Positions 27,590 through 29,122 of a DNA stretch of 43,975 nt are shown in pieces. Position numbers and translations under genes: made by a program. Below the pieces are notes generated by a model. It saw only the letters and a program-made list of their open reading frames with translations, did not search any database and was not told the DNA's origin. Numbering within the stretch: position 1 is the first letter of the stretch; the number at the start of each line of letters is the position of its first letter. Origin of the DNA: Muribaculaceae bacterium (GTDB taxonomy: Bacteria > Bacteroidota > Bacteroidia > Bacteroidales > G3-4614); the NCBI GenBank assembly GCA_017546805.1, contig JAFYRT010000047.1:1-43975 (forward strand), in the 5' to 3' direction.

Positions 27590-27892
27590 TTACTTACAAT
27601 TTGATTTTTCTTTTTTCTTCTGTAACTGCTTGGTTAACGCATCTATCACATTATCAATAGCTTCCTCGAAAGAATCGGCTATTTTTTGAGAATAAATATC
27701 ATCTGCTTTTGGCACTAAAATTTTTATTGAGGCTTCTTTATTTAATGCAGTTTCGGGTTTTACCACTCGCAAAACCACCTCCGCAGAAATAATTTCGTCA
27801 CAATATTTTTCCAACTTACTTACTTTCTTCTCAATGAACGATTGTAATTGCGATGTTGCATCGAAATGTACTGATTGAATTTTAATCTCCAT
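27590..27892 (-). CDS. raiA: Ribosome hibernation-promoting factor / RaiA-type protein (short form)
   Basis: A 100-residue protein of the YfiA/HPF family. It starts MEIKIQSVHFDATSQLQSFIEKKVSKLEKY and has the beta-alpha-beta-beta-beta-alpha length of short HPF, ending in a lysine-rich tail. It binds the 30S subunit between body and head and shuts down idle ribosomes. Its start lies inside the end of xerC (11-bp overlap). It has a strong Shine-Dalgarno, AGGAGG, 5 nt before the ATG, very unusual in this window. It is the last gene of the rpsU-xerC-raiA group. Confidence 0.92.
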   Translation of the reverse strand: MEIKIQSVHFDATSQLQSFIEKKVSKLEKYCDEIISAEVVLRVVKPETALNKEASIKILVPKADDIYSQKIADSFEEAIDNVIDALTKQLQKKKEKSNCK

Positions 27893-28790
27893 ATAAACCT
27901 CCTTTTTTTAATGCCCTTGGATGGGCGTGGTTATAATTATGTTTTAGTTCCTCAAATGTTATATGAGTATAAACCTGAGTAGACGTTAGCGAAGCATGCC
28001 CCAACAACTCCTTTACACTATCCATTTCGGCCCCGTTATTCAACATAGCCGAAGCAAATGTATGTCGCAATACATGGGGACTCAATTTCGACAAAGTGGA
28101 TATCTTAGCAAGATTACTCTTCACTATTCTATAAACCATCATAGGATACAAAGGTTCTCCGCTTTCTCTTACAAATAGAGTTTCAACCTCCACACCAACC
28201 TCTCTGTCGCGAATATCAATATATTTTACAATAGAGGCATGCAGCTTTGCTCCATACGGTATTACGCGCTGTTTGTTTCTTTTTCCGGTAACCTTTATTG
28301 TTCTCGCCGACATATCCACATCCTTATCTCTTAACTGCAACAATTCTGCTCTACGCATTCCGGTCTGATACAGCATATCAAGGATAAGTTTATCTCGAAC
28401 CGATACAAAATCGTCTTGAGCGCACTCCATCTCATCAAGCAAGAGAGACATATCTGATTGTCGAACGAACGAAGGTAGCGGTTTTGATTCTTTGGGCTTT
28501 GCCACCATGACCACAGGGGAAGACGTAATCACACCCGTTTTTAGCAGATATTTATAAAAGGTTCGCAACGCCGAAAGCTTACGTCCCACAGAGCGTGGAC
28601 TCATTTTTTGTTCCATCAACCATACAATATAATTACGAACGACGTCCGAATCAACCAATGTATGATCCACAGCCCCTGTTTGTTGCATAAGATACTCCTC
28701 AAACTGAGACATATCGTTATTATAAGACAATACGGTATGAGAAGAATAACCCTTCTCATACCGTATATATTTTATAAACTTCTGCAACAT
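27882..28790 (-). CDS. xerC: XerC/XerD-type site-specific tyrosine recombinase
   Basis: A 302-residue tyrosine recombinase. The N-terminal SAM-like core-binding domain is about 1-85. Catalytic residues are R146 (TGMRRAEL), K170, H239 and R242 (PHVLRHTF), H265 (LLGHASL) and nucleophile Y274. The length fits chromosome-dimer resolvases acting at dif, not phage integrases. Whether it is the XerC or XerD partner cannot be decided here. It sits between rpsU and raiA, a core location, and its mRNA start has a strong Shine-Dalgarno within a hairpin. Confidence 0.9.
   Translation of the reverse strand: MLQKFIKYIRYEKGYSSHTVLSYNNDMSQFEEYLMQQTGAVDHTLVDSDVVRNYIVWLMEQKMSPRSVGRKLSALRTFYKYLLKTGVITSSPVVMVAKPKESKPLPSFVRQSDMSLLLDEMECAQDDFVSVRDKLILDMLYQTGMRRAELLQLRDKDVDMSARTIKVTGKRNKQRVIPYGAKLHASIVKYIDIRDREVGVEVETLFVRESGEPLYPMMVYRIVKSNLAKISTLSKLSPHVLRHTFASAMLNNGAEMDSVKELLGHASLTSTQVYTHITFEELKHNYNHAHPRALKKGGLYGD
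27898..27909 (-). promoter_or_regulatory. Strong Shine-Dalgarno of raiA
   Basis: AAAAAAAGGAGG ends 5 nt before the raiA ATG. The bases also encode Lys-Lys-Gly-Gly at the end of xerC, so coding constraint could explain part of it. Only xerC, the gene immediately upstream, has a comparable site with the same 5-nt spacing. Confidence 0.7.
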
Positions 28791-28820
28791 CGTAGCCTCC
28801 TCCTAATGGTCTTGGCTACA
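28791..28820 (-). promoter_or_regulatory. Hairpin presenting the xerC Shine-Dalgarno
   Basis: On the minus strand GTAGCC and GGCTAC form a perfect 6-bp stem, with a possible T-G closing pair, around a 16-nt loop AAGACCATTAGGAGGA. AGGAGGAGG (28796-28804) occupies the 3' side of the loop and the first stem bases, 5 nt before the xerC ATG. It lies outside coding sequence, so the purine run is not forced by protein. It looks like a translational control element. Confidence 0.6.
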
Positions 28821-28863
28821 AATTTAATACAAAAATGTAATTCTGCAAGAAAAAAAGTAAAAA

Positions 28864-29055
28864 TTACTCTTCTACTTGTTGCAATTTTTGTACGTATACC
28901 GCACGCATCATTTTTTTGCGGTTAGCTACAGATGGTTTTTCAAAAGCTTGACGAGCACGAAGTTCTTTTACGATACCTGTTTTCTCGTATTTTCTTTTGA
29001 ATTTTTTTAGCGCTCTTTCAATATTGTCGCCTTCTTTTACGGGTACTATTATCAT
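28864..29055 (-). CDS. rpsU: 30S ribosomal protein bS21
   Basis: A 63-residue basic protein, MIIVPVKEGDNIERALKKFKRKYEKTG..., with the usual helical C-terminus. In Bacteroidia ribosomes bS21, with bS6 and bS18, covers the 3' end of 16S rRNA and hides the anti-Shine-Dalgarno. The start has no Shine-Dalgarno of its own, only A/T-rich sequence. It is first in the group rpsU-xerC-raiA with a good promoter upstream; the gap to xerC is 73 bp. Confidence 0.97.
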   Translation of the reverse strand: MIIVPVKEGDNIERALKKFKRKYEKTGIVKELRARQAFEKPSVANRKKMMRAVYVQKLQQVEE

Positions 29056-29092: not shown

Positions 29093-29122
29093 CAAAGTTA
29101 CACAACTTTTACGACATACAAA
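29093..29122 (-). promoter_or_regulatory. Promoter of rpsU-xerC-raiA
   Basis: Minus strand TTTG (29119-29122), 18-bp spacer, TAACTTTG (29093-29100): a full Bacteroidetes consensus with the same spacing as the core-operon promoter. It implies a leader of about 30 nt before rpsU. Confidence 0.75.

Follow-up and report, generated by a model that had tools for sequence, protein, structure and literature searches.

Conservation of a Shine-Dalgarno site before raiA in Bacteroidales, a candidate target of ribosomes whose anti-Shine-Dalgarno sequence is exposed

Ribosomes of Bacteroidia keep the anti-Shine-Dalgarno (anti-SD) sequence and yet hide it, and the sole well-worked use of this arrangement is at rpsU in Flavobacterium johnsoniae. 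In this organism, mutation of Tyr54 of bS21, deletion of the bS21 tail or depletion of bS21 raises the translation of a strong-SD reporter (PMC9976891). Autoregulation of rpsU by ribosomes lacking bS21 has been described in Flavobacteriales (McNutt 2023, PMC9976891). An extended SD, of 9-13 bp and below -13 kcal/mol on the scale of that paper, was argued to be necessary for the bS21 effect, and no Bacteroidales satisfying the rpsU criteria were reported (PMC9976891). Within Bacteroidales, rpsR is among the ribosomal-protein genes for which SDs have been described (Jha 2021, cited in PMC9976891 and in PMC8710568), and rplI is listed among the SD genes of certain Bacteroidia (PMC9976891). Strong SDs in SD-blind lineages are, as a kind, already published; the raiA site itself was found in no paper of the literature searched. 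Nor were raiA, hpf or xerC found named among the strong-SD genes of SD-blind lineages in that literature, the gene lists of Jha 2021 being outside its scope.

The locus analysed here, from a Muribaculaceae bacterium, resembles the Flavobacteriales rpsU system in its SD-blind ribosome, in a strong-SD gene that is readable when the 16S tail is free and in the neighbouring genes. There, however, rpsU bears an extended SD (9-13 bp), whereas here rpsU is without SD and raiA carries one of 9 bp, and the raiA product is a hibernation factor rather than a protein of the anti-SD pocket. The raiA site has the order Bacteroidales, the strength class and a position at internal cistrons in common with the SDs that Jha 2021, as cited, describes for rpsR and further ribosomal-protein genes. 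Those screens, as cited, report ribosomal-protein genes, whereas raiA is not one and goes unmentioned in PMC9976891 and PMC8710568. The conserved raiA SD would be a concrete second target beyond ribosomal proteins, in an order where rpsU autoregulation was missing. If the explanation proposed below is true, ribosome completeness would be tied to hibernation in dominant gut bacteria.

Genes and promoter motifs of the rpsU, xerC and raiA region

The window is the whole stretch examined, 43,975 nt of contig JAFYRT010000047.1 (GCA_017546805.1). The genes and promoter motifs concerned are the following.

27590..27892, minus strand: raiA, short HPF, 100 aa, ribosome hibernation-promoting factor (PF02482, E=1.1e-20; TIGR00741, 62.1 bits, cut-off 40.9)
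27882..28790, minus strand: xerC-like tyrosine recombinase, 302 aa (PF00589, E=2.5e-38); at its stop it shares 11 nt with raiA
28819..28826, minus strand: putative -7 box TAAATTTG (Bacteroidetes TAnnTTTG) for xerC-raiA; -33 element is TTG at 28846-28848
28864..29055, minus strand: rpsU (bS21, 63 aa, Tyr54 present), without SD (PF01165, E=4.5e-19; leader dG +1.6)
29093..29100, minus strand: putative -7 box TAACTTTG of rpsU, 37 nt upstream of the rpsU ATG

The PF02482 (S30AE) domain spans residues 3-97 of the 100 residues of RaiA, and the long C-terminal domain is absent; the protein shares family and length with the short HPF/YfiA factors (TIGR00741, PF02482). As a member of the HPF/YfiA family, RaiA is not bS21, bS18 or bS6, hence no protein of the anti-SD pocket, and its SD does not close an autoregulatory loop. 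To our knowledge, a conserved SD has not been described for any short HPF/YfiA member of an SD-blind lineage. For the xerC product, the top NCBIfam match was TIGR02224 (XerC) with 312.5 bits, slightly below the cut-off of 335. An Rfam scan of the window returned four tRNAs and nothing else.

Loci were sampled from genomes spread evenly across Bacteroidales, with the addition of named contigs and of genomes across the class Bacteroidia. The primary Bacteroidetes promoter consists of TAnnTTTG at -7 and TTTG near -33 (PMC7366714). The pair TTG-N17..23-TAnnTTYG was searched for within 110 nt upstream of the genes, and the expectation was obtained from shuffles. It was present upstream of rpsU at 87 of 103 loci (2.2 expected) and upstream of xerC at 42 of 113 (2.0 expected), and lay inside the rpsU-xerC gap at 41 of 103 (1.8 in shuffles). 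Upstream of raiA it was found at none of 109 loci. From these motifs we infer that rpsU is probably transcribed apart from xerC-raiA. The sequence-only reading had treated the position of xerC and raiA directly behind rpsU as a link between the genes; this order probably reflects no operon, because a promoter motif lies between rpsU and xerC.

Shine-Dalgarno sites at raiA and xerC

SD energies were calculated for the 20 nt upstream of each start against the Bacteroidia 16S tail AACACCUCCUUUCU on the ViennaRNA scale, and a conserved SD was taken as -9 kcal/mol or stronger. Two sites in the window are concerned.

27898..27909, minus strand: raiA SD AAAAAAAGGAGG(U), 5 nt 5' of the ATG, within the last xerC codons in this lineage; dG -13.4; kept in 100/112 Bacteroidales loci
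28796..28804, minus strand: SD-like AGGAGGAGG of xerC, lineage-specific, 5 nt before the ATG; confined to loci L032 and L142

Among the 30 non-overlapping gene-like ORFs of the window, xerC and raiA are the only ones with AGGAGG within 24 nt upstream of the start, both at 5 nt from the ATG, as had been read from the sequence at the outset; the genes of the ribosomal operon in the window lack it. After raiA (-13.4 kcal/mol) and xerC (-12.2), the third-best leader duplex reaches -8.7 kcal/mol. The scarcity applies to the window, since rplI (TAAGGAGGAACGACA-ATG) and rpsR (AAAGGAGAACTAGACC-ATG) elsewhere in the same genome also carry SDs (L175:1398-1700), while rpsF, the first gene of their operon, does not. 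AAAGGAGG was seen upstream of nqrC-like and uppP-like ORFs, named from reading their protein sequences, and of two others. As background, 400 kb of this 2.1-Mb genome were sampled, in which AGGAGG precedes the start of 3/280 genes (~1%). At that rate, two such genes among 30 have a chance of ~0.04, which is suggestive only. Across Bacteroidales relatives an SD is present at rpsR in 21/30, at rplI in 25/30 and at rpsF in 0/29 cases, and the rpsR frequency agrees with published screens.

On the minus strand the raiA leader reads AAAAAAAGGAGG-TTTAT-ATG, with AGGAGG at 27898-27903 and the ATG at 27890-27892. The site AAAGGAGGU pairs with the 16S tail over 9 contiguous bp at a spacing of 5 nt. An energy of -9 kcal/mol or stronger was obtained at the 100 of 112 Bacteroidales loci mentioned, from ~100 families, with a median of -12.2; about nine in ten of the families examined keep the strong SD. 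Between 40 and 60 nt upstream of raiA, a stretch taken as control, the same strength was reached at 2/109 loci. The xerC stop precedes the SD in 79 of 97 SD-positive loci, and the site, lying there between the xerC stop and raiA, is therefore noncoding in most relatives. The window's own group differs, as the xerC frame reads across the SD as KKGG (Lys-Lys-Gly-Gly). This comparison indicates that Bacteroidales raiA bears a genuine SD maintained by selection, and its conservation places the gene with rpsR and rplI among the conserved SD genes of SD-blind Bacteroidales.

At xerC the situation is different. Its leader, AGGAGGAGG-CTACG-ATG on the minus strand (AGGAGG 28796-28801, ATG 28788-28790; duplex -12.2 kcal/mol), is shared solely by the window and its closest relative L142, where it is identical; the next relatives, L033 and L143, have AAGGTGAGG. 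Only 5/116 Bacteroidales loci reach -9 kcal/mol or stronger. Judged from this distribution, the SD of xerC is an incidental feature of this lineage, a local oddity. Conservation of both SDs beyond coding constraint, on which the sequence-only reading had hinged, thus holds for raiA and fails for xerC, which falls outside any conserved circuit and was dropped as a circuit component.

In the remaining Bacteroidia the raiA SD is patchy, 20/67 loci of the other families in the class having one. Cytophagales-type loci, which retain the order rpsU-xerC-raiA, lack it at -9 kcal/mol or stronger (0/22), and some Cytophagales-type rpsU genes bear an extended SD of -19 and beyond. Most Bacteroidales rpsU genes are without SD, the leader reaching -9 or stronger at 23/107 loci. 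A raiA SD and an extended rpsU SD seldom co-occur (plain Fisher test, p=2e-4). A trade-off between them was not adopted, since too few pairs were informative in a tree-aware test, which gave no trend.

The C-terminal tail KKGG-YG of xerC in the window's group (27882-27910) looks as if the ancestral stop had been lost and the frame now ran on into the raiA SD, with the 11-nt gene overlap as the result. Local mRNA folds around raiA and xerC were not stronger than shuffles, and masking of the SD by mRNA structure was dropped as a candidate switch.

Translation of raiA and the competing explanations

The bS21 of this genome has Tyr54, which belongs to the pocket concealing the anti-SD, and Tyr is found in 104/106 Bacteroidales bS21 proteins. 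The 16S ends of relatives are CTGGAACACCTCCTTT, with the anti-SD CACCTCCTTT retained, which like Tyr54 supports the sequence-only reading. In the own genome assembly there was no 16S model match, and GTATCACCTCCTTT found there was for this reason not accepted as the 16S end. That the anti-SD is hidden in F. johnsoniae ribosomes, as the sequence-only reading states, is correct and published, but the gene regulated there is rpsU itself (PMC9976891).

The explanation that we propose is that a promoter immediately ahead of xerC gives a transcript of two genes, xerC and raiA, apart from rpsU, and that raiA, without a promoter of its own, would be read from inside this mRNA by SD/anti-SD pairing. 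Replete ribosomes would conceal the anti-SD in the bS21/bS18/bS6 pocket. Because replete Bacteroidia ribosomes hide it, subunits whose 16S tail is free should be the preferred ones for initiation at raiA, be they immature, damaged or without bS21 or bS18, and RaiA output would be proportional to the number of such ribosomes; the xerC SD would be incidental. We hold this explanation as a whole tentatively, at just short of even chances. Among genes that ribosomes with a free anti-SD may control, raiA is a new candidate, and its preferential translation on them is plausible. The analogy with the rpsU system is weakened because the 9-bp raiA SD falls below the extended rpsU type: extended rpsU SDs lie at about -18 to -22 against the raiA median of -12.2, which is nearer rpsR and at the lower edge of extended pairing, all on the ViennaRNA scale and not that of PMC9976891. 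A wider proposal, that raiA, rpsR and rplI make up a translational regulon of incomplete ribosomes, with which Bacteroidales gauge the share of exposed anti-SD by making a hibernation factor and which takes the place that the rpsU loop has in other orders of Bacteroidia, we regard as rather unlikely.

A serious rival assigns the raiA SD to the start or restart of translation at an internal cistron: on completing xerC, ribosomes would sit on the SD and reinitiate at raiA, a general coupling independent of bS21 status. The gene lies close behind xerC (mostly 13-22 nt, or an 11-nt overlap, across loci), rpsR and rplI are likewise internal genes, and strong SDs in the own genome concentrate at internal-type junctions (8/123, against 2/133 for first-gene-type genes, one of the two being xerC). 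Such a preference for internal cistrons agrees with coupling no less than with the proposed explanation. However, the other 115 of the 123 internal genes have no SD, so proximity alone demands none, and Cytophagales-type loci have the same gene order without a raiA SD. Coupling of this kind keeps an appreciable probability, though we think it somewhat doubtful.

The circuit as first written in the sequence-only reading, in which rpsU-xerC-raiA is one unit and scarcity of bS21 raises xerC and raiA together, accounts for the gene order and the two SDs of this genome and agrees with the preference of F. johnsoniae ribosomes lacking bS21 for SD mRNAs (PMC9976891). The rarity of the xerC SD and the promoter motif ahead of xerC make it improbable, as does the lack of an SD at most Bacteroidales rpsU genes, with which the loop would not restore bS21. 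Hardly credible is the reading that the AGGAGG before raiA is merely the Lys-Lys-Gly-Gly codons of the xerC tail, or chance. The window site does encode KKGG, and two SDs among 30 genes may arise by chance at the level given above, but the xerC stop lies before the SD in most SD-positive relatives and the site is conserved across the ~100 families. This reading is refuted for raiA and stands for xerC's own SD.

Repeats and hairpins around xerC

Two further elements, both on the minus strand, were noted at the 5' end of xerC.

28792..28819, minus strand: inverted repeat GTAGCC..GGCTAC abutting the putative xerC -7 box; the xerC AGGAGG lies between the arms and on them
28730..28766, minus strand: hairpin in xerC codons 9-21, ATACGGTATGAGAAG..CTTCTCATACCGTAT, conserved beyond coding

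The arms of the inverted repeat covary in relatives (CGTAGC/GCTACG, CGTTGC/GCAACG, CGCCAA/TTGGCG), with a mean stem of 3.8 compared to 2.9 in shuffled and 3.0 in swapped arms. The repeat may act as an operator or, in the xerC-raiA mRNA, as a hairpin at the 5' end. In more distant families a long hairpin resembling a terminator lies in the rpsU-xerC gap, and its loop often includes the xerC -7 box. At L060, L073, L085, L086, L087 and L107, a terminator-like hairpin of rpsU has the xerC -7 box in its loop, terminator and next promoter being in one element.

The hairpin within the xerC coding sequence is a single copy in the genome. Its pairing exceeds that of synonymous-codon shuffles (z=12.8, 25 near loci), and paired changes occur in its arms (CGG/CCG, CAG/CTG, AAG/CTT, GTGTGA/TCACAC). 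It is possible that this element is an RNA attenuator or a protein-binding DNA site. It is near-perfect, CGGTATGAGAAG..CTTCTCATACCG, and is kept in many Bacteroidales families.
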